Positions 1-64,000 are shown, counted from the first letter of the stretch. The stretch: 64,000 bases of DNA from Argopecten irradians (GCF_041381155.1 NC_091135.1:63571567-63635566), one strand, 5' to 3'. Numbers and translations are program-made. Notes: a model not told the origin generated them from the letters alone.

Positions 1-500
1 TATGGGAGGGTAGTTAATACAAGGTGTCTAAATGTGGATTTGTATGGGAGGGAGTTAATACAAGGTGTCTAAATGTGGATTTGTATGGGAGGGTAGTAAA
101 TACAAGGTGTATAAATGTGGATTTGTACGGGAGGGTAGTTAGTACAAAGTGTATAAATGTGGATTTGTATGGGAGGGAGTTAATACAAGGTGTCTAAATG
201 TGGATTTGTACGGGAGGGTAGTGAGTACTAGGTGTCTAAATGTGGATTTGCACGGGAGGGCAGTTAGTACAAGGTCTCAAAATGTGGATTTGTAAGGCAG
301 AGTAGTTAGTGCAAGGTGTCTAAATGTGGATTTGTACGGAAGAGTAGTTAGTACAAGGTGTCTAAATGTGGATTTGTATGGGAGGGTAGTTGTTACAAGG
401 TGTATAAATGTGGATTTGTATGGGAGGGTAGTAAATGTGGATTTGTATGGGAGGGTAGTTGTTACAAGGTGTATAAATGAGGATTTGTACGGGAGGGTAC
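1..500. repeat. Minisatellite, ~42-bp unit, ~12 copies, cut by the window edge
   Basis: About twelve head-to-tail copies of a 42-bp unit run from base 1 to about 500. Each carries GGATTTGTA, GGGAGGGTAG and ACAAGGTGT. Copies differ by a few substitutions, and a shortened copy sits near 430. The array continues off the left edge, so its true length is unknown. A 79-residue frame inside it (326-565) is only the repeat read in phase and ends in unrelated residues, so it is not called as a gene. Confidence 0.93.
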
Positions 501-1448
501 TCGGATTACAAAGACTAAATCACGGATTGGACAAAAGGAATGGAACCACCAGGCATACGGAGTAGTACAAATAGCTTCACAAGATAAACAAGGTGGGCAA
601 ATTCATTATTTGAAAATGAGCAACACAGCATAATAAAATGGTGATGAAAACAAAATCAAAATCAAAACTTGGATTTTACGATTTGATAGGGAGACAGACG
701 ATGGTAACCATGATGTGTCTGAAATGACAGCGGTGTGTCATTCCTTACCTATATCAGACATACAAGGTCAAACCCCGGACATCACAATAGCAAATTAGCT
801 CGGGTCAAGAGAACTGCTAGGATTACCATAAACATTTTGGTTTTACTTCATATAACATATGAACAAATAAAAACTGTTCTGCTAGGTTAAGGTGACGAGT
901 TTATAGTGTTAAATGTGTATTTCGTTAGCGTTAGTAGCTTTGGAATAAGAGGGTAGAAAACTGCATATGTTGTTTAAATTGCAGTAAAAGTTGACGTATG
1001 TGGAGATTGTACCACCTCCCCTGATACAGACTCACTCTTACTGTTAGATGGTACAGTCTGGCCAACAACTACGCTTTGCTCCTCAGTAGCAGAAACATGG
1101 TCGATCTGCATCCTCTGCCTAACATCTGATGGCTACTCTTCTTGCCCTTCCTGTCACCCAAAATATCTGCAGTAGTCTATTTTGGACAGGGAACCCACTA
1201 CAGTCTACTTTTTCCACAGATAAAATCCATATAGTCCATACCTTGGTACTGCACTTTGCCGTCAGTTCATCCTACTTCTTCCTTGCACGAGGGCCTTCGA
1301 AATCCTTTCTGTTGGTACGATGACATCATGGTTACCAGTGGAAAAACCAGCTTCCTGTATATGTCAACCTTCATCTCTCCTGACCGTGCTGTGTACAGGA
1401 TGGAAGAGTCACTTTACAATTATCCTTTTCTCATTGTTTCGCAAATAT
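501..1448. other. Unique AT-rich spacer, nothing recognised
   Basis: This non-repetitive stretch lies between the 42-bp and 48-bp arrays. Only short frames of under 80 residues are present, without recognisable domains or splice-flanked structure. I see no RNA gene or mobile-element end. Confidence 0.5.
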
Positions 1449-4996: not shown

Positions 4997-5893
4997 CCAC
5001 ATCCACAGATTAAGTTGTAAGAGTTCTTTACACGTTATCATTTACACCGGAAATTAATACATACAAACAAATGTACTATTTTCTTTCACGAACAACTGAA
5101 TTTTATCAAAGTTACTCGTCTGTGTAACGCATGAAATAGTTATGTCAAACAAAAACTAACAAAAAAAAAAATTGTTTAAAAGTTTGGCAGCAATTTGTGT
5201 CCATCTTATTTTGTATAGATGTATAAACTGCATATTACTTTCGTTGTTAATAGTTGAATCCTAAAGCGCCATAAAATGAGACAGAGATTCATTGTCGGTT
5301 TAATGTCTGATTTCTGAAGGAACTATGGATTTTTTTCTGAATTCCTAATTATTAAAAAACGCTGGCCATCTTTGACGCTATCTTTGATATCCATAAATAT
5401 TTAAAAATAAAATGCTCTCCACGCGCACGCACTTGGGTCTTAGTATATTTATACCAAGAGGAAATAATCAGTAGAGAATAAACATTATGTTGTTTTGTTT
5501 ACACATGACAGCCAGATTATGTTCCTGTATATATCCGTATATATAAGTATTTAGTGAGTAGGACAACTGGTTCAACTGTTGTCGGCATAATGTGACCGAA
5601 TGGATAGCCCTACTGGCGACAGTAAGATTCAGTGAGACATCAATATACCAAGGGTTTCTCGCTATCGCACGGAGACACAAATACCACAGACTGTTTAAAA
5701 GGAATAAACCCCAAAACACTCGCGTCCCATTGACATCCGTGTTATATGACTGAGATTTTTGCCGTTTTTTGATTGGTCTAGACTGCTCAGACAAGTTCTT
5801 CTAAAATGCAATGTCAAACTGAGTGTTCAGGGTTTTGGCTCTTTCGTATTTTGGACCAATTAGAATAGAGCGTTGTCGATTATCGGGTAGTAA

Positions 5894-5930
5894 TATCACA
5901 AAATTTAATATCACAAAGAATTTTGTGATA
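5894..5930. repeat. Short inverted repeat, 12-bp arms
   Basis: TATCACAAAATT at 5894-5905 is exactly the reverse complement of 5919-5930. The 13-bp spacer holds a further copy of the half-site TAATATCACAAA. This could be a protein-binding palindrome or chance in AT-rich DNA. There is no polymerase-III or transposon context. Confidence 0.4.
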
Positions 5931-7329
5931 AATATTTTAGTACTTTGAACTTCTGTTAATAGTTGCTAAATTTTAACATCAATTATCACGTTACTATTGT
6001 GTATAATTTGTCATTCCTAAGGCTTGATTATATTCTTGGTCATATTTACTCTACATATATCGTTTGTGACATTTGAGATAAAACCCCATAGTGAAAACTG
6101 TGTATATCCTCTGGCAATTTACTTCGATACCTTTTCTGAATTATCTTATGTTCCATTCTATAACGTAACCGGATTAATGTCACGGCCATCCTAATTGCCT
6201 AAAGGACACTGACCACGGCTGATTAATCTGCCAATGAGCGATATATGTCAATCATAATTCTGTAATTTTATTGTATGTCCATTATTTAAGCATGAAATAT
6301 TTTATGTGTAAGTCAGTGAGGTCTCCGACTTTGTACGGAATACAACGGTTACAATCTGGACACTCCAGAATAGCCATCCGTCAAGCCAAAGTTATCATCG
6401 TTAAATTCCAAAGTTCAACTTCAACATTTTCTTACGTCATCTTTACATCGTGACAAAACGTATGGAAGTTTCCGAATGTTAGTAACCACAATAAACAATT
6501 AGGAAAATCATGTCCTCATGGATAATAGCAAAACCTCGGATACATCAGTGATTTTTTTCTATAATTCTTTCCGAGAGAAAGGTCACGAATGTGATTTTGA
6601 AACGCTTAAAATTAACAATTTTGCTTTACGTTACAGCATGACCAGGAATTGATATGCTACATTTCAAAGTTTGCTTCTATCCAAAGTACTCTTTATATAT
6701 AACTTATTGTGTTGTCCTAGGTTCGTAATTGATTCAAAATGCAAAGCTGGTATCATATGCATCGTTTTATAAAATAAAACAGTTATTGACTTTCTGTAGG
6801 GGTTAATACGAGGAATCATTAACCCTTGAAAAGTGGAATGTCACCGTTCTCAGGTTAACAAGTCCACATATACGCTACAATGAGTCAATAGTTGTATAGC
6901 GTCACACGATACATACTGGGCATTTGTGTTATTGGACATCAATGTAGAAATAGACATCATGTAGTAAATCGATAGCGTCATGTAGTCCGTCGGTTTGGCC
7001 GTTAAAGAGATAGGTTCGATAACTTATCGATGTATTTAATTATTTTCAAATATCCAGTGTTCAATTCCTCTGTAATCGATTGTAAATGTAAAATGGCCTG
7101 ATTGGGTTAGAATCAAGAATGTCAAGTTGTTGTATCTAGAATAGCTGCATATTCTAGTTGAACCAATTGCATGTTGACCGCAGCGTTTTCGTGGGTGGCA
7201 ACATTATCCCACATGCATGACCTTGTTTTCGTCATTGGTTGTCGTGTAGATACCTTAGGCTGTTAAAGCATAAACTGTTGATTGGTTGAAGCAAATATAA
7301 CTATCCTCGTCTGACCCAAGAACTGAGTC

Positions 7330-7680
7330 CAGTGTGATTTGACAACTTGTTCGTTAACCCCGCCAATTGGCGTTATGTACGATGATGGTCCGCCTGACCG
7401 CGATCGTTTGATGGCATGTTCGGAGGTAGGCATCACTAATGGCCTGATGACTGTTGGTTCTCCAAATTTACATTCATCTGAGGGGATCAGGGGATATTTG
7501 ATTAGAAGTAGCGCTAGTTTCGGGCAGTGCTTAATACAGCAGTGATTGTGGGAAACACAGAGTGGTTGATTAAACTTTGGCTTTACTAATGAAACCTAGG
7601 TACAGAATTTGGCACATAATCAATACTAGAGTTGCGATTTAGATATAATCCTTTGCATGGCTCTTGCCTAGCGGGGCGGT
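7330..7680. promoter_or_regulatory. Candidate cis-regulatory module (motif-dense unique DNA)
   Basis: This unique stretch has several near-consensus transcription-factor sites. There is a perfect 12-bp palindrome CGCCAATTGGCG at 7361-7372, a Su(H)/RBPJ-type TGTGGGAA at 7547-7554, and an Otx/Bicoid-type TAATCC at 7646-7651. The last runs directly into a POU/octamer-like CTTTGCAT at 7651-7658. Homeodomain GATTA cores occur at about 7500 and 7570. The motifs are visible. The regulatory role is inferred only from their density and from the lower AT bias relative to the flanks. Confidence 0.25.
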
Positions 7681-8149
7681 CTGTCGAGCTGCTGATAAAA
7701 TTTACTTCTTCTATTCATGTTAAAAAGGACCCCTTTTAATTAAATTGAAATACATTTTGTTCATTAATGGGGCCAGGAGAGTCTGGATGTGACAGCCTTT
7801 CTCGCAATTACTTAGCAGTGCTAGCACAGTTGTCTTAATGATGTAAATTCTCCGGGCCCGCCGAGCCTATAGAAACGGTTTTGTCCATGTCAAGAAATAG
7901 AGAGAAATTGTATGCATTCATCAAAATTGTTTGTGAAGTTACCGTCCTAATGCTAAATTGGATGCTTGGTTGGCCTCAACTAGGTTTCGATAACTGAGTT
8001 ACACCATGAATTGTACAAATTATAAAGAAAAATTTCACATCTTCGACTCATATTATCAGATGGAAGCGGCACTAACTATATTAAACGTCTTCATTTGATG
8101 AATGGTATAGAAATTATATTCTAGATAGTGCAGGGAGATTGAAATGAAT

Positions 8150-8460
8150 TTCGCCATTTGTCGTGTCTGATTAAAGCGGTCGGTGAGAACTTGTTTTGTT
8201 TGGCCATTTCCCTAAATTAATATGGCCCGAAGCCAATTCTGTCTCGCGGCCATTAATGAGAGGGAGCCAAGATTGCGTTAAGATGTTATTTCACACGATC
8301 AATAACTTGCCGCTAATGACGAGGATAAAGTCTAGCAGTCCATTTGTTTCTTTGTTATTCCACCAACCCCTGCCCACTAGAGATCATAGCATTGACGCCA
8401 TTATTACAGAAATTGTCATGAGGCCGCAGACATGATTGCAAAATCTTTCAATCCTTAACC
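8150..8460. promoter_or_regulatory. Candidate cis-regulatory module rich in homeodomain cores
   Basis: Homeodomain-type cores are clustered here: TGATTAAAG near 8169, AAATTAATATGG near 8214, CCATTAATGAG near 8252, GCTAATGACG near 8313 and CCATTATTACAG near 8398. A C/EBP- or octamer-like ATTGCAAAA lies near 8434. The stretch is less AT-biased than its flanks and has no repeat character. It resembles non-coding DNA around developmental regulators, but conservation cannot be tested here. Confidence 0.25.
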
Positions 8461-10079
8461 TTCAGTACCTTTCCTTTTTTTCAAATTTCGTTTCCATGGT
8501 TGAGTATTTAAACTCCTCTAGACAATTTATTCAGTCATATTACCAGCGACCTACTTAAGCCCGCCGAAACTCAGTCGATTGTCTGCCTGTGTACTCTAGA
8601 AGGAAATATGATTATAGTATATATTGGAGATGATCTACTGTCGAATGTTTTGTGCTTATTGCCGCAGAGGGCCACTACCAACACTGTAATATATCTGCTA
8701 TGATTGTTATAAATATACCATCATCGGGAATATTATACTATACACAAGGAGAAGTAAAGTGTGTATACCTATATACAAAACATAGATTTACTGAATCAAT
8801 GTTCCCAGCATCTCACACCTACTCCGACACAGTGACCCCCCATTGACCGTCGGTGAAGACTAGGTATGTTGGTCTATTAAACTCCATGTCCAATTCTATA
8901 TTTAACAGCTATAGTCATTTATGGATGACCTCAAGTGTGCTATCTTGCGTGTGTGGGAGACTGCGGTATGTCCATTATAATAGTGCTATGTGACTGAAGC
9001 AGCTGATGACCAGAATCAACCCTGACTTTTGGTCCGTATCTGCCAATCGTCTACATCAATGTCAAAGTCAGAATATAGACATAGAGAACAATTGGTAGAA
9101 TGTCGGAGAACTACACCACTAACCCAATCCGCACTGAAAGATTTTTTCTTTGTCAAAATGTAAAAGATATAAAATTATAATGTGTTGTGTAGAATGAAAG
9201 CACACTGTGTTTACACGTAGGGTACTTATTTTGTAGGAGAACGACTGTACGGATAAACATACATGCTATCGACTTCGGGATCGATGTCAAAAGGAGTTTT
9301 TTAATTGGAGTCTCGTGAATACATATAGGAATTCCGTTGTCTGAAAAATTCCAGCAAATAATTGGAAGTTTGGTGTGATCGTCCTGGGGCTAAATTTAAC
9401 AAGAGATAATGCACTGAGGAATAGACACGGAATTATATACAACAGAACGCGGATCTGTGTAAATGCTTCGTCTACATTTTGTTTGATATAATGTAACTAA
9501 TTTTGTTCTGTCTCTTCCGTGTATACATATGTGTTGACACTTTATGGCACGAATCCCTGATCTATGAAGAGTGTAAGAATATTTCGTTTGTTGACCTGTG
9601 TTTAATTTGAAAGATAGTTTACATCTGTATCCGACAGATTAAAAGAAGGCCAAGCGCACATGTAGAATATTCGTGGAGAACACTTTTGAGCCAATCACTT
9701 TAGAACTTTTCGTTTATAAGATTTATCGTATAACTAGGTTATGTACAATTATACGGTTATTTAGTAACAATATACAGCGTGCTAGGTAGTAGATGTGTTG
9801 CCAGATTCTAGATTGTTGAGTGGCTTTCAGTGAGACTCCATCTCTTGGACTGCCGACACCTTCTTTTTGCAAGCGACTCATAAATATAATATTGCTTCCC
9901 ATTGCAGTGCATTATAGGCATCGGGCACCCAGACTATGGCTGACATCTACTTCAATCTTATGTTTTTATGTTTTATTTTACAAGATTGCAAGTTTTTCTT
10001 CACACCTCGATATGGTAGTCTTCAATCGGGTAGCTCTTACTGCTACTCTCTCCTGTCCATCACTGACCTTGTCGAGGTT

Positions 10080-10092
10080 TCTATAATGATAC
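10080..10092. repeat. Target-site duplication, left copy
   Basis: TCTATAATGATAC at 10080-10092 is repeated exactly at 10312-10324 and flanks the SINE. A 13-bp perfect direct repeat is typical of LINE-mediated insertion and shows that the insertion is fairly recent. Confidence 0.85.
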
Positions 10093-10311
10093 GTGGTTTG
10101 ATTTGATTAGTTTCACGTCCCACAGCCAGGGTAATTTAAGGACGTCCCAGGTTTGTTGGTGGAGGAGAAAGTCTGAGTACCCGGAGAAAAACCACCGACC
10201 ACCAGTCAGTACCTGGCACTTGCCACACTTGTGATTCGAACTCGCAACCAAGAGGTGGAGGGTTTGTAGTATTATGTCGGGACATCTTAATCACTCGGCC
10301 ACCGCGGCCCC
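10093..10311 (-). mobile_element. tRNA-derived SINE (possibly molluscan RUDI/V-SINE-like), full length
   Basis: Read on the minus strand, the 219-bp element starts with GGGGCCGCGGTGGCCGAGTG. This head holds a polymerase-III box A (TGGCCGAGTGATTAAG, complement of 10286-10301). A box B follows about 42 nt on (GAGTTCGAATC within the complement of 10233-10248). The head resembles a serine- or leucine-type tRNA. A conserved-looking body with GGTTTTTCTCCGGGTACTC follows, and the tail ends in an A-rich AATCAAATCAAA run at 10100. Perfect 13-bp direct repeats flank it. SINEs encode nothing and use a partner LINE's enzyme. The RUDI/V-SINE assignment is from memory of molluscan SINEs and is tentative; the tRNA-derived nature is well supported. 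Confidence 0.85.
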
Positions 10312-10324
10312 TCTATAATGATAC
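10312..10324. repeat. Target-site duplication, right copy
   Basis: This is the exact second copy of TCTATAATGATAC and abuts the tRNA-like head of the SINE. Confidence 0.85.
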
Positions 10325-10583
10325 ATTTAATGGTGTTGTATGTAGCAGTATGTAGGATAATGGGGGATACGTAACATATTAGGGCTACAGGGTCATCTTT
10401 AATGGTATACAATAAGTATGTTCACTCAACGTCTTTGTTGCAATAACTATGCAGTACAGACACGGGTGGATGTCAATCAAATTAATCTTCCTCAGCAGCA
10501 GATCAACAATCATAATTTCTCAGTTCTATACATGTCTGTTCTTCACCTACACAACTATTTAAATCTATTTGACGTTTTGTTCA

Positions 10584-13500
10584 CAGCAGCTGGTGACGAA
10601 TGGTATTGGTAGGACCCACATTTGGCCTCCCTTGTAGGAAGGTCAGCAACTGGTGACGAATGGTATTGGTAGGACCCACATTTGGCCTCCCTTGTAAGGA
10701 GGTCAGCAGCTGGTGACGAATGGTATTGGTAGGACCCACATTTGGCCTCCCTTGTGGGGAGGTCAGCAGCTGGTGACGAATGGTATTGGTAGGACCCACA
10801 TTTGGCCTCCCTTGTAGGGAGGTCAGCAGCTGGTGATGAATGGTATTGGTAGGACCCACATTTGGCCTCCCTTGTAAGGAGGTCAGCAGCTGGTGACAAA
10901 TGGTATTGGTAGGACCCACATTTGGCCTCCCTTGTAAGGAGGTCAGCAGCTGGTGACGAATGGTATTGGTAGGACCCACATTTGGCCTCCCTTGTAAGGA
11001 GGTCAGCAGCTGGTGATGAATGGTATTGGTAGGACCCACATTTGGCCTCCCTTTTAGGGAGGTCAGCAGCTGGTGACGAATGGTATTGGTAGGACCCACA
11101 TTTGGCCTCCCTTGTAAGGAGGTCAGCAGTTGGTGATGAATGGTATTGGTAGGACCCACATTTGGCCTCCCTTGTAAGGAGGTCAGCAACTGGTGACGAA
11201 TGGTATTGGTAGGACCCACATTTGGCCTCCCTTGTAAGGAGGTCAGCAGCTGGTGATGAATGGTATTGGTAGGACCCTCATTTGGCCTCCCTTGCAGGGA
11301 GGTCAGCAGCTGGTGATGAATGGTATTGGTAGGACCCACATTTGGCCTCCCTTGTAAGGAGGTCAGCAGCTGGTGACGAATGGTATTGGTAGGACCCACA
11401 TTTGGCCTCCCTTGTAGGGAGGTCAGCAGCTGGTGACGAATGGTATTGGTAGGACCCACATTTGGCCTCGCTTGTAGGGAGGTCAGCAGCTGGTGATGAA
11501 TGGTATTGGTAGGACCCACATTTGGCCTCCCTTGTAAGGAGGTCAGCAGCTGGTGACGAATGGTATTGGTAGGACCCACATTTGGCCTCCCTTGTAAGGA
11601 GGTCAGCAGCTGGTGACGAATGGTATTGGTAGGACCCACATTTGGCCTCCCTTGTATGGAGGTCAGCAGCTGGTGATGAATGGTATTGGTAGGACCCACA
11701 TTTGGCCTCCCTTGAAGGAAGGTCAGCAGCTGGTGACGAATGGTATTGGTAGGACCCACATTTGGCCTCCCTTGAAGGAAGGTCAGCAGCTGGTGATGAA
11801 TGGTATTGGTAGGACCCACATTTGGCCTCCCTTTTAGGGAGGTCAGCAGCTGGTGATGAATGGTATTGGTAGGACCCACATTTGGCCTCCCTTGTAAGGA
11901 GGTCAGCTACTGGTGACGAATGGTATTGGTAGGACCCACATTTGGCCTCCCTTGTAAGGAGGTCAGCAACTGGTGACGAATGGTATTGGTAGGAACCACA
12001 TTTGGCCTCCCTTGTAAGGAGGTCAGCAGCTGGTGATGAATGGTATTGGTAGGACCCTCATTTGGGCTCCCTTGCAGGGAGGTCAGCAGCTGGTGATGAA
12101 TGGTATTGGTAGGACCCACATTTGGCCTCCCTTGTAGGGAGGTCAGCAGCTGGTGACGAATGGTATTGGTAGGACCCACATTTGGCCTCCCTTGTAGGGA
12201 GGTCAGCAGCTGGTGATGAATGGTATTGGTAGGACCCACATTTGGCCTCCCTTGTAAGGAGGTCAGCAGCTGGTGACGAATGGTATTGGTAGGACCCACA
12301 TTTGGCCTCCCTTGTAAGGAGGTCAGCAGCTGGTGACGAATGGTATTGGTAGGACCCACATTTGGGCTCCCTTGCAGGGAGGTCAGCAGCTGGTGATGAA
12401 TGGTATTGGTAGGACCCACATTTGGCCTCCCTTGTAGGGAGGTCAGCAGCTGGTGACGAATGGTATTGGTAGGACCCACATTTGGCCTCCCTTGTAGGGA
12501 GGTCAGCAGCTGGTGATGAATGGTATTGGTAGGACCCACATTTGGCCTCCCTTGTAAGGAGGTCAGCAGCTGGTGACGAATGGTATTGGTAGGACCCACA
12601 TTTGGCCTCCCTTGTAAGGGTCAGCAGCTGGTGACGAATGGTATTGGTAGGACCCACATCATTTTGGCCTCCCTTGTATGGAGGTCAGCAGCTGGTGATG
12701 AATGGTATTGGTAGGACCCACATTTGGCCTCCCTTGAAGGAAGGTCAGCAGCTGGTGACGAATGGTATTGGTAGGACCCACATTTGGCCTCCCTTGAAGG
12801 AAGGTCAGCAGCTGGTGATGAATGGTATTGGTAGGACCCACATTTGGCCTCCCTTTTAGGGAGGTCAGCAGCTGGTGATGAATGGTATTGGTAGGACCCA
12901 CATTTGGCCTCCCTTGTAAGGAGGTCAGCTACTGGTGACGAATGGTATTGGTAGGACCCACATTTGGCCTCCCTTGTAAGGAGGTCAGCAACTGGTGACG
13001 AATGGTATTGGTAGGAACCACATTTGGCCTCCCTTGTAAGGAGGTCAGCAGCTGGTGATGAATGGTATTGGTAGGACCCTCATTTGGCCTCCCTTGCAGG
13101 GAGGTCAGCAGCTGGTGATGAATGGTATTGGTAGGACCCACATTTGGCCTCCCTTGTAAGGAGGTCAGCAGCTGGTGACGAATGGTATTGGTAGGACCCA
13201 CATTTGGCCTCCCTTGTAGGGAGGTCAGCAGCTGGTGATGAATGGTATTGGTAGGACCCACATTTGGCCTCCCTTGTAAGGAGGTCAGCAGCTGGTGACG
13301 AATGGTATTGGTAGGACCCACATTTGGCCTCCCTTGAGGAGGTCAGCAGCCGAATGGTATTGGTGGACCCACATTTGGCCTCCCTTGTATTGTAGGACCC
13401 ACATTTGGCTCCTTGTAGGAGGTCAGCAGCTGGTGATGAATGGTATTGGTAGGACCCACATTTGGCCTCCCTTGTAAGGAGGTCAGCAGCTGGTGACGAA

Positions 13501-15780: not shown

Positions 15781-15830
15781 CCGGTTACTGTGTCTGATCG
15801 TAATTATATAACAAGGACATAGTCATTCAG

Positions 15831-16780
15831 ATCCCCCGCCAATGGAGATATCAAAGCTGAAGTAAGTTTGATTGTGGAGAATTATGTGTATGAAAAAAAC
15901 CCAGGAAAAAGGAAGTTGAGCTAAAGAAAGATGGAGTATAATTCAAGTAGAGCGGGGCTGCAATTGTTGAATCAGGTATACAGCCTTGACATTTATATAG
16001 ACTATATACACACAGATGGGTGGAGTTTTGCAAAGTAACATTTATCATTTACCATGATATTTTCAGCAATATTTCCATGGTAACGGAAAAAGTGCAAAAA
16101 ATGAAAACCTAAAAATAGCAAAAGGTACTACTAGACCATAAAAAGAATGTGTCTATGAAGTTTCGTGGAAATATCTCTGCTGGTTTTAGAGTTATGCTGC
16201 GGAAACGAACCTGGTACAAAAATACGATATTTTCAGCAATGTTTCCATGGTTACGGAAAAAGTGCAAAAAATGGAAACCTAAAAATAGCAAAAGGCACTA
16301 CTAGACCATAAGAACAATGTGTCTATGAAGTTTCGTGAAAATATCTCTGCTTGTTTTAGAGTTGTGCTCCGGAAACGATTCTTACACAAAAATCTGCCAT
16401 TTTCAGCAATGTTTCCATGGTTACAGAAAAAAGTACAAAAAGTGAAAACCTTAAAATAGCAAAAGGCACTACTAGACCATAAGACCAATGTGTCTATGAA
16501 GTTTCGTGGAAATATCTCTGCTGGTTTTAGAGTTATGCTCCGGAAACGAACCTGGTACACAAATATGATATTTTCAGCAATGTTTCCATGGTTACGGAAA
16601 AAATGCAAAAAATGAAAACCTAAAAATAGCAAAAGGCACTACTAGACCATAAGACCAATGTGTGTATGAAGTTTCGTGGAAATATCTCTACTGGTTTTAA
16701 AGTTATGCTCCGGAAACCATTCGTACGGATGGACGGAACCCATTTGTATATCCCCCGCCAACTTCGTTGGGCGGGGGATA
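15831..16780 (+). mobile_element. Pearl/HINE-like non-autonomous element with four ~170-bp core repeats
   Basis: The left end carries ATCCCCCGCCAA (from 15831). The right end is a strong stem-loop at 16749-16780, whose 11-bp arms TATCCCCCGCC and GGCGGGGGATA repeat that motif. Between them are four copies of a ~170-bp core, with TTTCCATGG at about 16072, 16242, 16412 and 16583, and a short ACGGATGGACGG tract just before the right end. Terminal motif, tandem core, ACGG-type tract and terminal hairpin match the described layout of bivalve pearl elements, which are thought to be moved by Helentrons. There is no coding capacity. The architecture is seen; the family name is inferred. Confidence 0.65.
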
Positions 16781-38434: not shown

Positions 38435-38640
38435 AGATTTAGGTGTTAATTGTTCTAATTTCTGATTTTAATTATTCCAATATCTTACATTAATTGTTCT
38501 GATTTCTGATTTTAACTGTTCTAATTTCTGATTTTAATTATTCCAATTTCCGATATAAATTGTTCAAATTTCTCATTTTAACTCTTCTAATTTCTAATTT
38601 TTAACAGTTCCAAATTCAATTTTAATTAAACTTACAGCTA
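38435..38640. repeat. Degenerate AT-rich ~24-bp repeats
   Basis: Diverged copies of TTAATTGTTCTAATTTCTGA recur about every 23-24 bp, about eight times, with many substitutions. This looks like an old, decaying array. Confidence 0.6.
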
Positions 38641-46900: not shown

Positions 46901-48006
46901 TGGAGGTAAAGTTGTGTGTACAGTAGGACAGTCCATATTAGGTAAGTAAGGTGGAGGTAAAGTTGTGTGTACAGTAGGACAGTCCATATTAGGTAAATAA
47001 GGTGGAGGTAAAGTTGTGTGTACAGTAGGACAGTCCATATTAGGTAAATAAGGTGGAGGTAAAGTTGTGTGTACAGTAGGACAGTCCATATTAGGTAAGT
47101 AAGGTGGAGGTAAAGTTGTGTGTACAGTAGGACAGTCCATATTAGGTAAAGTAAGGTGGAGGTAAAGTTGTGTGTACAGTAGGACAGTCCATATTAGGTA
47201 AATAAGGTGGAGGTAAAGTTGTGTGTACAGTAGGACAGTCCATATTAGGTAAATAAGGTGGAGGTAAAGTTGTGTGTACAGTAGGACAGTCCATATTAGG
47301 TAAGTAAGGTGGAGGTAAAGTTGTGTGTAACAGTAGGACAGTCCATATTAGGTAAATAAGGTGGAGGTAAAGTTGTGTGTACAGTAGGACAGTCCATATT
47401 AGGTAAGTAAGGTGGAGGTAAAGTTGTGTGTACAGTAGGACAGTCCATATTAGGTAAGGTGGAGGTAAAGTTGTGTGTACAGTAGGACAGTCCATATTAG
47501 GTAAGTAAGGTGTAAAGTGTGTACAGTAGGACAGTCCATATTAGGTAAATAAGGTGGAGGTAAAGTTGTGTGTACAGTAGGACAGTCCATATTAGGTAAG
47601 TAAGGTGGAGGTAAAGTTGTGTGTACAGAAGGACAGTCCATATTAGGTAAGTAAGGTGGAGGTAAAGTTGTGTGTACAGTAGGACAGTCCATATTAGGTA
47701 AGTAAGGTGGAGGTAAAGTTGTGTGTACAGTAGGACAGTCCATATTAGGTAAGTAAGGTGGAGGTAAAGTTTGTGTGTACAGTAGGACAGTCCATATTAG
47801 GTAAGTAAGGTGGAGGTAAAGTTGTGTGTACAGTAGGACAGTCCATATTAGTAAGGTGGAGGTAATGGTAAGTGGCATATTGTGTAGTAAGGTGGAGGTT
47901 AAGTTGTGTGTACAGTAGGACAGTCCATATTAGGTAAGTAAGGTGGAGGTAAAGTTGTGTGTACAGTAGGACAGTCCATATTAGGTAAGTAAGGTGGAGG
48001 TAAAGT
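40951..48006. repeat. Minisatellite, 51-bp unit, ~138 copies, very uniform, G-rich strand on plus
   Basis: About 138 copies of a 51-bp unit hold GTAAGGTGGAGGTAAAGTTG, TGTGTACAGTAGGACAGTCC and ATATTAGGTAA. Most copies are identical apart from AGGTAAGTAAGG or AGGTAAATAAGG and occasional 3-4-bp losses. The plus-strand unit has about 17 G and 4 C, a strong skew kept over 7 kb. Most units carry AGGTAAGT, a consensus 5' splice site. Minus-strand frames (MDCPTVHTTLPPPYLPN, 17 residues, up to 456 in a row) follow from 3n length and lack of stops. Two minus frames are open in places and no unique ends exist. Rearranged units lie near 43030-43100, 44655-44760, 45440-45480 and 47500-47900. Confidence 0.97.
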
Positions 48007-49124: not shown

Positions 49125-51183
49125 AACAAGAGGCCCATGGGCCTAAACGGTCACCTGAGTTAGAATATATAATGAAACAAATAAAGAAAAACATAAAGAC
49201 ATATAAACACTATATGCTGGGAATTGAAGTTGGTCAGTGATTTATAAATTTGACTTTTTAGACTATGAAGAGTAATTGCTTTCATCAAACCTGTGAACTC
49301 GAGGTATTTTTTGAAATTTTAATCATTTTTACCCTGTTTGGTCCGGCCCCTCTGGTCCCCCAGGGGGTCATCGAGGACAGATATGGATGTTAAAATGCTA
49401 TATCTTAGGCTAATAATTCTAATCAAGTTTGACTAATTTCCTACGAAAATTGGGCAAATAATGTTCACAAAAATGTTTTTCCTATATAAACTAAAGTAAA
49501 CTTGACCCCTCCCCGTGAGACCCCAAGGTTATATAATTCACAATTTTTATAACACACCTTAAGACCTTTCCATCTATAATAATTTGATTCTACTATATCC
49601 AGAATTTTAGAAGATTTTTGAAGTTTTAGCCTATTTGACACTTTTTTTGCCCCGCTCCTCTGCCCCCAGGGAGTCGGCCAGGACCAATGTGGATATGATA
49701 TTAAAATGCTATCTCAGGCCAATAATTCTAACCAAGTTTGACTCATTTCCTATGAAAATTGAGCAAAAAATGCTCATTAATGTGTTTTTCTTATATAAAC
49801 TATTGTAAACTTGACCCACTCCCCAAGGGGAAACGTGAGACCCCAGTGTCATATAATTTACAATTTTTATAAACAAACTTTAAGACCTTTTCATCTATAA
49901 AGTGTATTTGAATCTACCATTTCCAGAATTTTAAAAGAATATTTTTGAAGTTTTAGCCTATTTGACCTTTTTTGGCCCCGCCCCTCTGCCCCCCAGTGGG
50001 TTGGCCTGGACCAATATGGATATGATATTAAAATGCTATCTCAGGCCAATAATTCTAACCAAGTTTGACTTGTTTCCAATGAAAATTGAGCAAAAAATGC
50101 TCATAAATGTGTTTTCCCTATATAAACTATGGTAAACTTGACCCCCTCCACAGGGGGAAACGTGAGACCCCAGGGTCATATAATTCACAATTTTTGTAAA
50201 GGACCTTAATACCTTTTTATTTATGAAAAATATTTGATTCTACCATTTCCAGAATTTCAGAAGAATATTTTTGAAGTTTTAGCCTATTTGACCCTTTTTT
50301 AGCCCCACCCTTCTAACCCCAGGGGGTCGGCCAGGACCAATGTGGATATGATATTAAAATGCTATCTCAGGCTAATAATTCTAATCAAGTTTGACTCGTT
50401 TCCAATAAAAATTGAGCAAAACATGCTCATAAATGTGTTTTCCCTATATAAACTATAGTAAACTTGACCCCCTCCCCAGGGGAAAACGTGAAACACAGGG
50501 GTCATATAATTCACAATTTTTGTAAAGGACCTTAATACCTTTTTATTTATGAAAAATATTTGATTCTACCATTTCCAGAATTTCAGAAGAAGATTTTTGA
50601 AGTTTTAGCCTATTTGACCCCTTTTGACCCCGCCCCTAAGGCCCCTGGGGGTCAGTCATAGAAAATTTGTTAATAGGATTAAATGGCCATCTTATACTGA
50701 TAATTCTGTCAACATTTGACTCATTTCCTATTACAAATGACCAAATAATGTGCAAAAATGTGTTTTCCCTATATAAACTATAGTAAACTTAACCCCCTCC
50801 CCAGGGGCAAACTAGAGACCCCAGGGTCATATAATTCACAATTTTTGTAAAGGACCTTAAGACCTTTCTATCTATGAACAGTATTTGATTCTACCACATC
50901 TGTGAGTAGAGAAGAAGATTTTTACAATTTTACTCAATTTTACCCCTTTTGGCCCCTCCCAGAGCCACCTGGGGGGTGGGGACCATATAATTCACAATTT
51001 TGATTGGCCTTATGCCTTAGAAGGTTTGTGCAAAATTTCATTGAAATTGCTTCAGCAGTTTTGGAGAAGAAGACGAAAATGTAAATTGTTTACGGACATA
51101 CGACGCACGACGCATGACGCACGACGACGGACAAAAGGCGATTAGAATAGGTCACTTGAGACTTCGTCTCAGGTGACCTAAAA
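49125..51183 (+). mobile_element. Pearl/HINE-like element, AGGCCCATGGGCCT family, with ~325-bp core repeats
   Basis: The left end is the perfect palindrome AGGCCCATGGGCCT (49131-49144) followed by GGTCACCTGA (49149-49158). It is nearly identical to the left end at 27633. The right end is a strong hairpin at 51149-51179, AGGTCACTTGAGAC, TTC, GTCTCAGGTGACCT, with one T-G wobble in 14 pairs, and it embeds the same motif. In between are about five core repeats of 306-328 bp, marked by TTTGACTCATTTCC-like sequence at about 49430, 49735, 50063, 50390 and 50716. An ACGACGCACGACGC tract runs near 51100-51130. The core is unrelated to that of the 27633 element despite matching ends. Non-coding. Confidence 0.65.
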
Positions 51184-54041: not shown

Positions 54042-54536
54042 TACTAAAGGATTACTAAAGTTCTGCATTAAGGTGAGAATATAGCGAGCAAAATATTGTA
54101 TGGTATCTTGTAAGTACATTTAATTGTAAAGCAAAAGAAAACCAGATCTGGTGAATTACTGTGTAAATGTTATAACTTGATGAAGGAGTAATAGTGAGGG
54201 CAATGTCATGATGAAAATAGGAATGTGATAAGGTCAAGGTCATTGTAGGGATAAAGTTATTGGTGAAAGTCAATGTTCTATTGCTGGTAATTAAAGGTTA
54301 CTAACAGCAAATTGTCACTATAAAGACTAGGTTGTGGTGAGGTTGAGTCAAGGAAAAGGGTACTAATAGGAAAATGATTTATGAGGACACTGTATTGGGA
54401 AAAAGTCACCTTAATATATATTTCTGGTGAGTTCAAGGTCATGTAACAGAAAATAGTCATATTTTAGGAAAAAAAATACTGAAATGTAAAGCTTTAGATT
54501 GGGGCAAAAGCTTGATCACTAAGAGGCAAAGGTCAT
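54042..54536. repeat. Degenerate AAGGTCA-containing repeat region
   Basis: Loose, diverged repeats hold AAGGTCA, AAAGTCA and GGTCATTG. The tandem pair AAGGTCAAGGTCATTG lies near 54230-54245. It runs into the cleaner 40-bp array and resembles the degenerate stretch at 57090-57316 beyond the LINE. The two may have been one region split by the LINE. Confidence 0.4.
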
Positions 54537-54834
54537 TTACTCTGAAGTTGACCTTGGCAACGTTTGACACCCGTGTTAACTCTGAAGTTGACCTTGGCAA
54601 TGTTTGACACCTGTGTTGACTCTGAAGTTGATCTTGGCAATGTTTGACACCTGTGTTGACTTTGAAGTTGACCTTACCAATGTTTGGCACCTGTGTTGAC
54701 TTTGAAGTTGATCTTGCCAATGTTTGACACCAGTGTTGACTCTGAAGTTGACCTTGGCAATGTTTGACACCTGTGTTGACTCTGAAGTTGACCTTACCAA
54801 TGTTTGACACTTGTGTTGAGTCTGCAGTTGACCT
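54537..54834. repeat. Minisatellite, 40-bp unit, ~7.5 copies
   Basis: Copies start every 40 bp from 54541 (54581, 54621, 54661, 54701, 54741, 54781, 54821). They hold TCTGAAGTTGACCTTGGCAA and TGTTTGACACCTGTGTTGAC. TGACCTTGG is the complement of CCAAGGTCA, the extended half-site for NR5A (FTZ-F1/SF-1) and ERR receptors. Overlapping minus-strand frames of 117 and 74 residues are by-products. Confidence 0.93.
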
Positions 54835-55261
54835 CTGTAGGGTAGAGTTTCATGAACCAGTTTTTGAATCAGAAGATTTTCGCTTGAACAAGTATTTGAT
54901 AGTGTCTGTTATTAAATTGGGATAAATATGTTGGGATCTTACCATCAATCCATTCCGTATTCAGACCTAAACAAACAAATAAAAGAACAAATTACATTAA
55001 AATTGAAACTGTTGCACGTATATCACATTCAGGATGTTCACTTTTTTTTTCACAGTACAAATATTTTATTCCCCCAGCTGTATATGATGTGTATATACAT
55101 TTGTGGCATAGCAACAAATGTATATACACATCAGTAATTTGGTGAGAGCTGCCAGGGTTGGGGTGCCCTGGGGTCAACTCCCCGAACAATAATGTCCTTG
55201 CACAGGAGGGCTCTCGCACAGCATGCATCAATTTAAACAATAATTTTTTTTTTAGAGCCAT
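54835..55261. other. Spacer with a perfect hairpin and a GC-rich structured patch
   Basis: Unique DNA up to the 3' end of the LINE. It holds the perfect inverted repeat at 55085-55133. A GC-rich patch at about 55141-55216 has nested complementary segments: GAGAGC at 55144 with GCTCTC at 55210, CAGGG at 55153 with CCCTG at 55166, and GGGG at 55170 with CCCC at 55180. No gene is recognised. Confidence 0.45.
55085..55133. repeat. Perfect 20-bp inverted repeat, 9-nt loop
   Basis: TGATGTGTATATACATTTGT (55085-55104) is followed by GGCATAGCA and then its exact reverse complement (55114-55133). A perfect 20-bp stem is unlikely by chance in 64 kb, although its AT/TATA content raises the odds. It could be a foldback, part of a transposon end or a small hairpin RNA. 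Nothing here decides between them. Confidence 0.75.
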
Positions 55262-57068
55262 TACAATTAAAGGGAAAAAAAAAGAAAAAACTTTTTAAGA
55301 AAATTACTTGTGTATTTAATTCTGTTCACATTAAGATTTGGAATTTAATTGTTTTGGTTTAATGTTTGTAGTGGAGTGAATAAAATATTTGTATATACAA
55401 ACAAAAACTAGCACAAAAAGACACACACAGTCACACATATATATAAAGAATTATAGACAATACACAAACAAGACAAAAAAAATTCAAATCATACATATTT
55501 AAGTACTACAACATAAAAACATCATACAAACATCGATTGGCATATTTCAAGAACTATTCAAAAATATATTTCCAATTGATCCATATTTGATCAAATTTCT
55601 CAATACATCCATTTTTAATTGATAGCTTTTTTTCAACATCATATTTTGTTAACAAAAACTCACTCAAACCTTGCATATTTATGTTTTGTTTTTTTCTTGA
55701 TACAGAAAAAATATAAAACTTCATATAAAGAATAATAAAATTGAGAGGTAATGAAAAATTTTCAGTCTCACCAAACAGTATTGTTTCTAATTTAAATTCT
55801 ACCACATTATTAGTTTTTTCATATATTTTTCTTTTCATATCTTGCCATATTTCAAAAGATTTTTGACAATACCAAAAAACATGTTTTATGGTTTCAACTT
55901 CTGTATTACAGATATTACATATATTATTTCCAGAAATATTCATAATTTTAAAGTAATTATTCAAAGGGAGTATACAGTGTTGTAGTCTATACTGGAACCA
56001 TTGTATTGATGTATCCTTGGTAATTAGAAAAGGTATCTTATATTTGCTTGTCCAGTGTATGTTTCTAAAGACAGCTTGTTGCTTCCATTTCTGCTCTGAT
56101 GTTATCAAACCTTTATTTTTTTTCAATTAAACAAAAATACATGTCTTTACATCCCTTAATACTTTTAAATAAAAAATGAATATGGCTAGGTATGAATGGT
56201 CTATCTAGTTTATTTAACATAATAAGGTTTAAATTTAGATTCTTACATATTTTCTTGATACAACTGCATATACTTCGATAAAGCAACAAATTTTCTGATT
56301 CTATACCGAATCTTTGTTTGAAATCATTAAAAGAAAGAAAATTATTCTCTTGGTCTAATAAATCACAAACATTTCGAACACCCTTATCAAACCATTTTTT
56401 GTTAAAAAAGGATTTATTATCAATGCAAAAAAAAAGGGTTGTACCATAAAGGAAGTCTTAAAAATTCTGAAGAAGTTCTCACCTGTACTTCTTCAGATAC
56501 CCTAACCCATGCCTGGAAAACATGCATCCAAAATGTATTATTTGTTTTAAGGTTTTTGATAAAATCAGTTCCTAAATCTGATACATTTGATATTGGGAAG
56601 TGTTGCACTTCAAAAATATTAATCCAGCATTTTCTATTACTTTTAAGAAGCCTTCGCATCCATGTAGATTTCAAACTAGATATGAATTCAGAAATATCAA
56701 CCATTTTAAGACCACCATTTTCATAATTTGATATTAATGTTTTTCTTTTGATTTTATCAACTGGTGATTGCCAAATGAAATTAAAGAATAAAGTATTCAA
56801 ATGTTGAATGAAAGTGTTTCCAGGAGTGGGAATGGATATAAACAAATGATTGAATTTAGGTATAATAATTGATTTCAAAACTACAATTCTTCCAATAGGA
56901 GTAAAGAGTCTTCTTGACCAATGCCCAAGGATATTTCTTATATTAGTTTGCATTTTCGTGTAATTTATACCAGTCATTTCATCTAAATTAACTGAAAAAT
57001 CAATACCAAGCAAATTAAATTTTGTTTCACCCCATTTAAGTTTCCATCTATGATGGTATGTTCACTTG
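55262..57068 (-). mobile_element. 5'-truncated LINE, L1/Tx1-like clade
   Basis: On the minus strand this holds the last ~500 residues of a non-LTR retrotransposon ORF2, followed by ~290 bp of AT-rich 3' region. The A-run at about 55244-55253 (minus) may be the 3' tail, so the 3' border is approximate. The element starts inside ORF2 near 57068, after the reverse-transcriptase catalytic core, so endonuclease and catalytic residues are absent. This is the usual result of incomplete target-primed reverse transcription. It lies between two degenerate AAGGTCA-type repeat regions. No clear target-site duplication was found. Confidence 0.8.
55554..57067 (-). pseudogene. LINE ORF2 C-terminal half (RT thumb to zinc-knuckle), two frameshifts
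   Basis: Three successive minus-strand frames cover it. 57067-56420 has KWGETKFNLLGIDFS, then RRLFTPIGRIVVLKSIIIPK and GGLKMVDISEF, typical of the region after the RT catalytic motifs in L1/Tx1-like LINEs. About 56430-56125 continues with KKWFDKGVRNVCDLL. 56126-55554 carries the RT-associated zinc-binding motif CNIC-x8-HVFWYC (C-x2-C-x8-H-x4-C) and ends WKYIFE-stop. Both frame changes fall in homopolymers, an A9 run at 56427-56435 and a T8 run at 56116-56123 (plus-strand view). Otherwise the frames are free of stops, so this is a young copy or one with sequencing errors. It cannot be active because its 5' half is missing. Confidence 0.82.
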
Positions 57069-57089
57069 AGATAAAAAAAAATCAAAGAT

Positions 57090-57316
57090 AAAAATGCTTA
57101 CATATCCAGAGATGACAAACCTTTCCAAAGTTGCATTAGCCATCTATGTTTTAAGGTCACTGCAGATTTTAAGTCAAATGTCTCCCACACTTAGAGGTCA
57201 ACAAATATATAAGGTTAAAGATCACCCATTACTAAGGTCAAAGTTTACACCTTTACAGAAGTCACTATATCAGGTATAAGGTCACCCTTCTCTAACATAT
57301 TAAATACCAAAGAGGT
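57090..57316. repeat. Degenerate AAGGTCA-containing repeat region
   Basis: AAGGTCA or GAGGTCA recurs irregularly (near 57152, 57200, 57234, 57269 and 57312) in otherwise diverged sequence. It runs into the 34-bp array and is similar in style to 54042-54536 on the far side of the LINE. Confidence 0.35.
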
Positions 57317-57530
57317 CAAAAGTCATCAGGATTCAACCACTATTTATGGACAAAAGTCATCAGGATTCAACCACTATTTATGGACAAAAGTCATCAGGAT
57401 TCAACCACTATTTATGGACAAAAGTCATCAGGATTCCACCACTATTTATGGACAAAAGTCATCAGGATTCAACCACTATTTATGGACAAATGTCATCAGG
57501 ATTCAACCACTATTTATAGACAAATGTCAT
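57317..57530. repeat. Minisatellite, 34-bp unit, ~6 copies
   Basis: About 6.3 near-identical copies hold GTCATCAGGATTCAACCACT and ATTTATGGACAAA. A forward frame of 71 residues is a by-product of the repeat. Confidence 0.93.
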
Positions 57531-58805
57531 CCACCCTAAAAGATCATGCATCAGAATTGATAGAAATATTCCTTTGTTGTCATGGTAAAGTGTGAGCCCT
57601 GTTTTCAAAGCTCACTATTTGTGTTGTAAATCAAAATTACAATTATATTTCACTATCATTAACTTCTTTTCATGTGAGATTCAGCTTCACAAATGAATAC
57701 ATTGTACATGTTTACCTTATTTAAGTTGATTGGTATACAATTTTCAAATTTGTCAAAGTTCATCTTCATGTTTTTACGTATAGTATACATTGTATTGTAC
57801 AGCCTTTTATCTGAAGCCTGGTCTGTTTTTTATAGTGTTTGTCATGACCTAATTAATATCAAAATCATCACAAAATGGGACAAAATGTCAAGGCCAAGTT
57901 TTTAGGATAACCACATCATCTTGTGTAGCTATTATACTTATTAAGTTCCTGAGTAGGAGCTGAAATAATTCACAGTTGATCGCTGAAAAAAAAGCAAAAT
58001 AAGAGTGGTCGTAGATAGTAATTACTGAGAAGCTACAGGCATGTATCTCCACTAGCAGGCTGTAACACACATTTTATCTTTAAAGAGACGAAAAAAGTAA
58101 TTAACACGACAATTTTCCATCAACAGCACACAGCAATTGTATTAAATTTAATATATATGATTGTTTCCGATGGTGGTAGACATTTACAAAAGGTACATGC
58201 TTGGAATCTATTGTACCTCAGCTATAGTTCAAGGCTTCTCAAATAGGTATAGCGCTTAAAACTGCTTCGTTTCACAGCAATAAAATCAAATTAAGACTAT
58301 AAGCTTGCAAATTAAATCTTTAGCAATCTCGTCAGTAGCAGGCATTCAGTGCGTTCCATTGACAGACATGGGAAGCTCACCAAAAACATGCATCAGCTAG
58401 ATTTCCAGGATAATGTTCTCTACAACAGAGCAAACTATTCTCCTTCATTTATCAAATAGGTATTTTCTTGATATAAATTAACAAAGACTTTAGTAATATA
58501 GGCACAAAATAAAACTTCAACAACTGAAGAAGAGACCTATAAAGCCTGTATAGCGGACCTAGCCCCAATTTCTCATAACAAACTGACTTTAGTCAAAACT
58601 TTTCACATAAGTAACACAGGGAGAAAAAAATTAGTTTTGACTGCAGTCTGCAATTATTTTTTTGAGGAATTGGCGTCCGGTTATTTCAGCAAATATGACA
58701 AATTTTGATCATTGGCAGGGGGATATAAACAATAAAGATTAAAAGCAGGAACAGCTAAGCTATAGAAATATGAAGTGGTAACCTTAAAATGATAGAACAT
58801 ACAAG
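57531..58805. other. Unique AT-rich spacer, nothing recognised
   Basis: About 1.3 kb of non-repetitive DNA. Frames are at most about 70 residues without domains. No RNA gene or mobile-element end is recognised. Confidence 0.5.
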
Positions 58806-59004: not shown

Positions 59005-59611
59005 CTATCACAATGCAGGACTCTTGTCCTGTGGTAGAAATGTGCTACAGGTGAAATATCATGTGACAACTCTGTTTAATATGTCATTACAGAAGATTTT
59101 AACTGATCGTCAAAACTTGTAAGGTGACAGGGTCCTTTCTTTTAGATACTGTGGTTACCCGATACTGCAGAGCAGCACTCAGATTTTGAATTTTGATTTC
59201 AATGCATTCTGGCCAATATTGAATTAAAATATTGTATCAACAATATTTTTCGGTACAAGCTCATCAAAGGACCAATTTTTGAGAATACAAATAAAGTTGT
59301 ATTTTACATTTTTACATCTGATGTACTTTTTCAAAAAATTGGATTTTAATGTGGAATAACCTTTCCAAAATTCACAAATCACGCAAAGATGCAACTTTGA
59401 AAAAACTTATCTACTGCAATTATCAAACTACCTTTTTACAAATAAGATCATTTATATGTTGGATATGCAGCTTACATATTCAGAAATATATTCTGTTATT
59501 TGTTTTTCATTTTGAAAATATAGTTGCTTTGGTTTGAACCAGGTCAATTTGCACCAATTGCCTCTTTTAAAACAGTCATATTGATAATGAGGTAATGATG
59601 ACTAATTACTG
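59005..59611. other. Unique AT-rich spacer, nothing recognised
   Basis: About 600 bp between the 50-bp and 30-bp arrays. No gene, RNA or mobile-element end is seen. Confidence 0.5.
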
Positions 59612-62475
59612 AAAAGACATACCCAATGCAATGAGCCAATGTGAAGACAAACACAAGGCAATAAAACAATGGGGAGAGACAAGGCAGTGAGCCAATTGAA
59701 AGACAGACACAAGACAAAAAACTAACGGGAAGACAGATACAAGGCAGTGAGCCAATGGGAAGACAGACACAAGGCAGTGAGCCAATGAGAAGACAGACAC
59801 AAGGCAATAAAACAATGGGGAGAGACAAGGCAGTGAGCCAATTGAAAGACAGACACAAGACAAAAAACTAATGGGAAGACAGATACAAGGCAGTGAGCCA
59901 ATGGGAAGACAGACACAAGGCAGTGAGCCAATGAGAAGACAGACACAAGGCAGTGAGCCAATGAGAAGACAGACACAAGGCGGTGAGTCAATGGGAAGAT
60001 AGACACACGGCAATAAGCCAATGGGAAGACAGGCACAAGGCAAAAAACTAATGGGAAGACAGACACAAGGCAGTGAGCCAATGGGAGGACAGACAAAAGG
60101 CAATGAGCCAATGGGAAGACAGACAGAAGGCAATGAGCCAATGGGAATATAGACACACGGCAATAAGCCAATGGGAAGACAGGCACAAGGCAATAACCAA
60201 ATGGGAAGACAGAAAAAAGGCAATAACCCAATGGGAAGAAAGGCACAAGGCAATAACCCAATGGGAAGAAAGGCACAAGGCAATAACCCAATGGGAAGAA
60301 AGGCACAGGGCAATAACCAAATGGGAAGACAGACAAAAGGCAAAAACCCAAGGGGAAGGCAGACACAAGACAATAACCCAATGGGATGATAGACACAAGG
60401 CAATGAGCCAATGAGAAGATGGCACAAGGCAAAAACCCAATGGGAAGACAGACAAAAGGCAATAACCCAATGGGAAGAACGGAACAAGGCAATAACCCAA
60501 TGGGAAGAAAGGCACAGGGCAATAACCAAATGGGAAGACAGATACAAGACAATAACCCGATGGGAATACAGACAAAAGGCAATGAGCCAATGAGAAGACA
60601 GACAAAAGGTAGTGAGCCAATGGGAAAGCAGACAAAAGGCAATGAGCCGATGGGAAGATAAACAAATGGCAATGAGCCAATGGGAAGACAGGCACAAGGC
60701 AAAAAACTAATGGGAAGACAGACACAAGGCAGTGAGCCAATGGGAGGACAGACAAAAGGCAATGAGCCAATGGGAAGACAGACAGAAGGCAATGAGCCAA
60801 TGGGAAGACAGACAGAAGGCAATAACCCAATGGGAAGACAGGCACAAGGCAATAACCCAATGGGAAGAAAGGCACAAGGCAATAACCCAATGGGAAGAAA
60901 GGCACAAGGCAATAACCCAATGGGAAGAAAGGCACAGGGCAATAACCAAATGGGAAGACAGACAAAAGGCAAAAACCCAAGGGGAAGGCAGACACAAGAC
61001 AATAACCCAATGGGATGATAGACACAAGGCAATGAGCCAATGAGAAGATGGCACAAGGCAAAAACCCAATGGGAAGACAGACAAAAGGCAATAACCCAAT
61101 GGGAAGAACGGAACAAGGCAATAACCCAATGGGAAGAAAGGCACAGGGCAATAACCAAATGGGAAGTCAGATACAAGACAATAACCCGATGGGAATACAG
61201 ACAAAAGGCAATGAGCCAATGAGAAGACAGACAAAAGGTAGTGAGCCAATGGGAAAGCAGACAAAAGGCAATGAGCCGATGGGAAGATAAACAAATGGCA
61301 ATGAGCCAATGGGAAGACAGGCACAAGGCAAAAAACTAATGGGAAGACAGACACAAGGCAGTGAGCCAATGGGAGGACAGACAAAAGGCAATGAGCCAAT
61401 GGGAAGACAGACAGAAGGCAATGAGCCAATGGGAATATAGACACACGGCAATAAGCCAATGGGAAGACAGGCACAAGGCAATGAGCCAATGGGAAGACAG
61501 ACAGAAGGCAATGAGCCAATGGGAAGACAGACAGAAGGCAATGAGCCAATGGGAATATAGACACACGGCAATAAGCCAATGGGAAGACAGGCACAAGGCA
61601 ATAACCAAATGGGAAGAAAGGCACAAGGCAATAACCCAATGGGAAGAAAGGCACAGGGCAATAACCAAATGGGAAGACAGACAAAAGGCAAAAACCCAAG
61701 GGGAAGGCAGACACAAGACAATAACCCAATGGGATGATAGACACAAGGCAATGAGCCAATGAGAAGATGGCACAAGGCAAAAACCCAATGGGAAGACAGA
61801 CAAAAGGCAATAACCCAATGGGAAGAAAGGAACAAGGCAATAACCCAATGGGAAGAAAGGCACAGGGCAATAACCAAATGGGAAGACAGATACAAGACAA
61901 TAACCCGATGGGAATACAGACAAAAGGCAATGAGCCAATGAGAAGACAGACAAAAGGCAGTGAGCCAATGGGAAAGCAGGCACAAGGCAATGAGCCAATG
62001 GGAAGATAGACACAAAGCAGACACAAGGCAATAAACCAATGGGAAGATAGACACAAGGCAAAAACCCAATGGGAAGACAGACAAAAGGCAATGAGCCAAT
62101 GGGAAGAGAGGCACAAGGCAATAACCCAATGGGAAGACAGACAAAAGGCAATAACCCTATGGGTAGAAAGGCACAAGACAATGACCCAATGGGAAGAAAG
62201 GCACAAGGCAATAACCAAATGGGACTACAGACAAAAGGCAATGAGCCAATGAGAAGACAGACACAAGACAATAAACCAATGGGTAGATAGACACAAGACA
62301 ATGAGCCAATGGGAAGAATGACAAAAAACAATGAGCCAATAGGAAGTTAAGTAACACAAAGTAATGAACCAATGAAAACACATTTATTACACAAAGGAAC
62401 CAATGGGAAACCACTAACATAAAATCAGTTGATAGCCAACATAGGAGCCAGATTGAGAAAACAGACACAAGGCAA
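59612..62475. repeat. Minisatellite, 30-bp unit, ~95 copies, CCAAT box in nearly every unit
   Basis: About 95 copies of a 30-bp unit hold AGCCAATGGGAAGACAGACA and CAAGGCAATG. Units vary (AACCCAATGGG, AACCAAATGGG, GAAAGGCACA). From about 62345 to 62475 they decay into unique DNA. AGCCAATGGG and ACCCAATGGG fit the NF-Y consensus. Several frames on both strands are open for 60-530 residues (reverse GSLPCVCLPI-type, forward MGRQTKGNNP-type), as expected of a 3n unit without stops. Blocks are duplicated: the segment at 60411 recurs at 61040 and 61759 with nearly the same variant order. Confidence 0.96.
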
Positions 62476-63990: not shown

Positions 63991-64000
63991 GGATAACAAA

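Follow-up and report, generated by a model that had tools for sequence, protein, structure and literature searches.

Within a 64,000-nucleotide stretch of the Argopecten irradians genome (GCF_041381155.1, NC_091135.1:63571567-63635566; hereafter the window), minisatellites with many different repeat units lie close together, separated by short spacers and mobile elements. The question raised by this locus is whether such a cluster marks a chromosomal domain that repeatedly generates new arrays, or whether it is what a genome rich in tandem repeats would be expected to contain.

Results

Fourteen minisatellite arrays cover more than half of the window

TRF analysis of the whole window identified 14 minisatellite arrays (Table 1). 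Their units measure 21-60 bp, and the limits of each array were set by merging TRF rows by hand. Together the arrays amount to 37,271 bp, or 58.2% of the window, and the tandem cores of mobile elements add a further 3.8 kb, bringing the tandem fraction to ~64%. The arrays consist of head-to-tail units within the 10-100 bp range that characterizes minisatellites (VNTR), and eight of the 14 are longer than 1 kb; A8 is a weak array with 75% matches. These measurements agree closely with the original prediction of about 37.2 kb (58%) of tandem sequence including eight arrays above 1 kb. The predicted size range of 21-60 bp also held, while the predicted number of units (13) was one too low, the additional unit probably being the degenerate A8. 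The mobile elements noted at that time could be identified as four Helentron-like elements (T1-T4) and the remnant of a LINE.

As a control for chance, 20 sequences simulated from a first-order Markov model of the window were run through TRF. No simulated sequence exceeded 2 TRF rows, 82 bp or a score of 65, compared with scores of up to 12,802 for the real window. Because the simulations yield almost nothing comparable, a chance origin of the arrays is excluded. AAGGTCA words were also seen to recur at 54070-57600, in the spacers flanking A11 and A12, and are perhaps relics of older decayed arrays.

Table 1. Minisatellite arrays and mobile elements located in the window.
Feature	Start	End	Strand	Remarks
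A1 minisatellite, 42-bp unit	1	499	+	truncated by window start; GC skew 0.73
A2 minisatellite, 48-bp unit	1448	4996	+	~75 copies, mean identity 0.93
A3 minisatellite, 60-bp unit	10584	15780	+	~86 copies, mean identity 0.97
T1 HINE-like element	15838	16785	.	left edge approximate; 170-bp tandem core 16054-16726, inverted ends ATCCCCCGCCAA, terminal hairpin
A4 minisatellite, 42-bp unit	17536	25503	+	~190 copies, mean identity 0.94
T2 HINE-like element	25968	26835	.	155-bp tandem core 26068-26746; related to T3
T3 HINE-like element, T2 family	27676	28832	.	155-bp tandem core, GC-rich simple repeat, terminal hairpin
A5 minisatellite, 42-bp unit	29824	35782	+	~143 copies; many indel bursts
A6 minisatellite, 45-bp unit	36135	37282	+	~26 copies
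A7 minisatellite, 21-bp unit	38044	38274	+	11 copies
A8 degenerate minisatellite, 22/66-bp unit	38446	38627	+	TRF
A9 minisatellite, 51-bp unit	40952	48006	+	~139 copies; GC skew 0.62
T4 HINE-like element	49124	51186	.	326-bp core 49380-50896, GGTCACCTGA inverted ends, ACGACGC simple repeat, terminal hairpin
A10 minisatellite, 26-bp unit	52001	54041	+	~78 copies; AT skew -0.51
A11 minisatellite, 40-bp unit	54539	54834	+	~7 copies
Decayed LINE reverse transcriptase remnant	55554	57061	-	three frame pieces
A12 minisatellite, 34-bp unit	57317	57531	+	~6 copies
A13 minisatellite, 50-bp unit	58806	59003	+	4 copies
A14 minisatellite, 30-bp unit	59614	62346	+	~91 copies, identity 0.87; AT skew 0.71

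The repeat units are mutually unrelated by sequence comparison

Units were compared with one another on both strands in 182 pairwise tests. A p value below 0.05 was obtained in 6.6% of the tests, where ~5% would be expected, and none of the 182 comparisons was significant after correction (minimum p 0.0025). As judged by sequence comparison, the 14 unit sequences are mutually unrelated, being no closer to each other than shuffled ones. The earlier claim that cross-homology between units is not evident was thereby borne out. The accompanying claim that the window does not represent one satellite spreading was also upheld, there being many independent arrays with unrelated units and differing internal divergence. 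A search of the spacers for a single-copy source of any unit returned no clear candidate, the best being a 15-bp match to A14 within the flank of A14 itself. No significant sub-repeats were detected within the units, no flanks were common to different arrays, and no match was found when the repeat sequences were searched for in paper texts.

Arrays carry marks suggestive of unequal exchange or gene conversion

The mean identity of the long arrays ranges from 0.87 (A14, the most diverged) to 0.98 (A9), and in most of them the centre is cleaner than the edges. The contrast is clearest for A9, with an identity of 0.997 centrally against 0.925 towards the edges, and is also seen in A2 (0.938 versus 0.869) and A14 (0.883 versus 0.807), whereas in A3 and A4 it differs little. 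In addition, blocks spanning many units have been duplicated within arrays, with exact repeats of 320-500 bp present in A14, A3 and A4. In A3 an exact 425-bp block is found again 1022 bp (17 units) away and in A4 an exact 498-bp block 1613 bp (38.4 units) away, while blocks recur in A14 at 629 and 719 bp (21 and 24 units) and A2 contains a block duplication at a lag of 23 units. Block duplications and cleaner centres are what unequal exchange or gene conversion would be expected to leave behind. Substitution variants are mostly common to several copies (singletons make up 4-23%), as expected when variants spread within an array, and variants of the kind that unequal exchange or conversion would spread were found in the arrays with enough copies. 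The overall pattern fits independent local birth of the arrays, with unequal exchange or gene conversion acting on them thereafter. Copy-to-copy identity in the long arrays is almost flat with lag; a short-lag higher-order structure was considered and rejected, the triple-length periods reported by TRF being multiples of the basic unit.

Helentron-like elements and a LINE remnant lie between the arrays

T1-T4 each contain a tandem core between conserved ends, as do HINE, or non-autonomous Helentrons. All four have inverted subterminal repeats near AACAAG-type starts, and simple repeats are located close to one end of T3 and T4. The inverted repeats and terminal palindrome hairpin are clear in T1, T3 and T4 and weak in T2, with T4 the only element whose inverted pair exceeds shuffled sequences (p 0.045). 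The combination of tandem core, inverted subterminal repeats, simple repeat and terminal palindrome resembles that of the oyster HINE (Cg_HINE), in which cores of 160-180 bp dominate (PMC7492417); the cores of T1-T3 are 155-170 bp and that of T4 is 326 bp. T3 itself is a nested insertion, enclosed by the two ends of a further element, of AAGAGGCCCATGGGCC type (27637-29416). The window further contains AACAAGAGGCCCATGGGCC-type sequence, which we take to be of a kind that occurs in bivalve genomes; together with the element ends, it suggests that the window is of bivalve origin.

The LINE remnant gave a zf-RVT Pfam match (E 1.5e-5) just under the family gathering score, as well as matches to LINE-1 ORF2 and other reverse-transcriptase entries in the PDB (best E 8.6e-6). 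Its frame breaks at 56110 and 56430 are at or beside A/T homopolymer runs and could reflect either decay or sequencing error. By eye only, the sequence at 10100-10320 resembles, in reverse orientation (GATTCGAACTCGCAACC), a tRNA-derived SINE. Comparison of three motifs shared by the mobile elements with public viral contigs revealed no relatives. One element motif had a single match among bacterial and archaeal genomes, in Aeromonas and at the palindrome of the motif, which was taken as chance.

The four tandem cores described above are indeed parts of Helentron-like elements, and in oysters most satellite DNA is similar to the central repeats of Helitrons. According to one model, the minisatellites would have been brought in by such elements, in the manner of the 160-180 bp repeats of bivalves. 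The likeness to HINE is, however, limited to T1-T4: inverted repeats around the 14 minisatellites never exceeded shuffles (p at least 0.095) in a test that is weak, having flagged only T4 of the four elements, and in which A1 entered truncated at the start of the window. By eye, neither an AACAAG start nor a terminal hairpin was apparent at the limits of any minisatellite, and by neither approach were conserved HINE-type ends found beside any of the 14. Along with the lack of a flank common to the arrays, these observations make carriage by Helentron-like elements very unlikely.

Density of the cluster relative to published genome backgrounds

In the scallop Amusium pleuronectes tandem repeats detected by TRF are the largest repeat class, at 21.7% of the genome, a figure that counts units of every length as well as the repeats within mobile elements (PMC10225492), and in Argopecten purpuratus they account for 11.46% (TRF; PMC5905365). 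Oyster satellitomes constitute ~3-8% of the genome. For Daphnia, Drosophila and honeybee, values of ~1.3-2.9% have been obtained for units of 1-50 bp using different software (PMC3152781), and compared with this arthropod background, 14 unrelated arrays in 62 kb are far denser. The window resembles scallop genomes in that tandem repeats are a major repeat class; the scallop figures, however, are genome averages over all unit lengths, and the window lies several times higher. Given the published scallop content, a similar density elsewhere in the genome is plausible.

These backgrounds were used in a density model in which arrays were placed randomly, with array lengths taken from this window (a bias), so that its output serves as a guide only. 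Coverage of at least 37 kb was reached in 1.25% of 64-kb windows at a background of 21.7%, in 0.05% at 11.5%, and in ~1 in 70,000 at 6.3%; at the two higher backgrounds this corresponds to several to many windows per genome. The array count was rarer under the model than the coverage, with at least 14 arrays per window in 0.11% of cases at 21.7% and in zero of 200,000 draws at 11.5%. At scallop backgrounds, therefore, such windows are expected without a special domain, whereas at an oyster-like background they are not: were the background ~3-8%, the window would be a strong outlier.

In unit size, in the head-to-tail organization of arrays of 0.2-8 kb and in the presence of variant copies, the arrays resemble animal minisatellites (VNTR, units of ~10-100 bp), as they do in the strand asymmetry of some arrays and in their internal block-wise duplication. 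Many different short-unit families within one genome are also a feature of freshwater crayfish satellitomes, in which there are 54-622 satellite families, mostly <100 bp; there the families are counted genome-wide from reads, and local clustering is not described in the part of that work drawn on here (PMC13130569).

Assembly error, coding repeats and chromosomal context as alternative explanations

The indels in these arrays are bunched, with variance/mean ratios of 3.8-5.7 in A3, A4, A5 and A9, while substitutions are near random in A3, A4 and A9 (0.9-1.1) and have a ratio of 2.3 in A5. Inside the arrays 29 indel bursts were counted, among them a stretch of A5 (33017-33060) holding ~30 bp of unrelated G-rich sequence; further bursts interrupt otherwise clean arrays at 13337-13417, 44658-44745, 45446-45477 and 47848-47886. 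Because indels are bunched while substitutions are mostly scattered, the bursts are likely to be local consensus errors of a long-read assembly, and exact array lengths are unreliable. Some bursts are clean phase jumps and may be true rearrangement joints, for example in A2 near 3905. The bursts have no regular spacing (p 0.93), and a polishing-window footprint was rejected. That the arrays as a whole are largely an assembly artefact is, however, highly improbable: such errors change lengths and local sequence but would not make 14 unrelated arrays, and random consensus error cannot produce substitution variants that are shared and organized in blocks. The arrays themselves are thus very likely real, even though their exact lengths are not reliable. 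A different possibility is that the arrays are exons of a repeat protein, as might be suggested by stop-free runs of up to 665 aa and by nine of 14 unit lengths being divisible by three (p 0.017 uncorrected, with six divisors tested). The open runs, however, occur in several frames on both strands and terminate inside arrays, consensus units carry stops in many frames, an excess of third-position substitutions is not consistent, and one-base indels are common; the single conserved open frame without frameshifts that is typical of protein-coding repeats was not found. Divisibility by three was rejected as a sign of coding, and we regard the exon explanation as exceedingly unlikely. Unit lengths are also even in 11 of 14 cases (p 0.029 uncorrected), which, like the multiples of three, is probably chance.

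The remaining alternatives place the cluster in a particular chromosomal setting. If the window lay within an exceptionally long intron, or in a gene desert of regulatory character, insertions would be tolerated and arrays could accumulate passively. Consistent with this, no Pfam domain other than that of the LINE remnant was found in 27 ORFs from outside the arrays. The spacer ORFs that were scanned revealed neither an exon nor a gene, and no tRNA or Rfam RNA family was found in the window. Homeodomain-like AT-rich sites, scored with a motif set picked after the sequence had been read, are in excess in two spacers (24 versus 10.9 expected at 38628-40951, and 9 versus 1.9 expected at 63400-64000), a weak hint of regulatory sequence, possibly conserved, and hence of a gene desert or long intron. 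Against it, no exon or splice pair was found (short exons would escape detection), and the 5.6-kb spacer at 4997-10583 contains neither arrays nor an excess of AT-rich sites. An intron or gene desert is therefore a tentative possibility, and one compatible with the explanation that we prefer. We consider it distinctly unlikely that the window instead belongs to a subtelomeric or pseudoautosomal-like domain where frequent meiotic breaks found and enlarge minisatellites. Such a domain would accommodate 14 independent arrays, block-wise duplications within them and strand-asymmetric units (GC skew 0.73 in A1 and 0.62 in A9), and it has precedents in human subtelomeric minisatellites, which destabilize chromosomes in yeast (PMC3486850), and in mouse PAR and PAR-like ends rich in the mo-2 minisatellite (PMC10997794). 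However, the window contains no TTAGGG repeat with one mismatch allowed, no array contains a consensus G-quadruplex motif (the weak two-G pattern was frequent only in A9), and the units are AT-rich to moderate in GC. Although the mouse mo-2 ends are likewise minisatellite-rich stretches, they involve one family with a meiotic role, whereas the window holds 14 unrelated families with no known role. The broader proposal of a bivalve chromosomal domain, whether an end, sex-linked or recombination-hot, that repeatedly founds minisatellites from unrelated sequence, with births of different ages, seems to us comparably doubtful.

The A9 unit was also observed to contain AGGTAAGT, a consensus 5′ splice site, which is present 105 times on the plus strand of A9 (40952-48006) and nowhere else on the plus strand of the window. 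If A9 were transcribed from the plus strand, these copies would constitute a row of decoy donor sites.

Discussion

We conclude that the window probably represents a dense cluster of ordinary minisatellites, without recognizable genes, in a tandem-repeat-rich bivalve genome that is scallop-like as judged from published backgrounds, lying in the dense tail of their scatter. According to this model, each array would have been founded separately when a short sequence happened to be duplicated in the course of replication or break repair. The arrays would then have grown and been homogenized as unequal sister exchange or gene conversion copied many units together in blocks, a step supported by their internal structure. 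The Helentron-like elements and the LINE would be independent insertions into the same stretch. The clustering itself would most likely correspond to the dense tail of a genome-wide scatter, combined with selection in choosing the window. The original interpretation is supported in part, as regards the many independent arrays, whereas an array-generating domain is probably not required, and the window is probably mostly ordinary for such a genome, with the cluster being real.

If the density proves to be truly local, the window would offer a natural laboratory for minisatellite birth, with unrelated arrays at several apparent stages of homogenization. If instead it is the norm for this genome, as published scallop figures suggest, the window would mainly illustrate the extent to which some bivalve genomes are shaped by tandem repeats, and would also serve as a warning of local assembly errors in such arrays.
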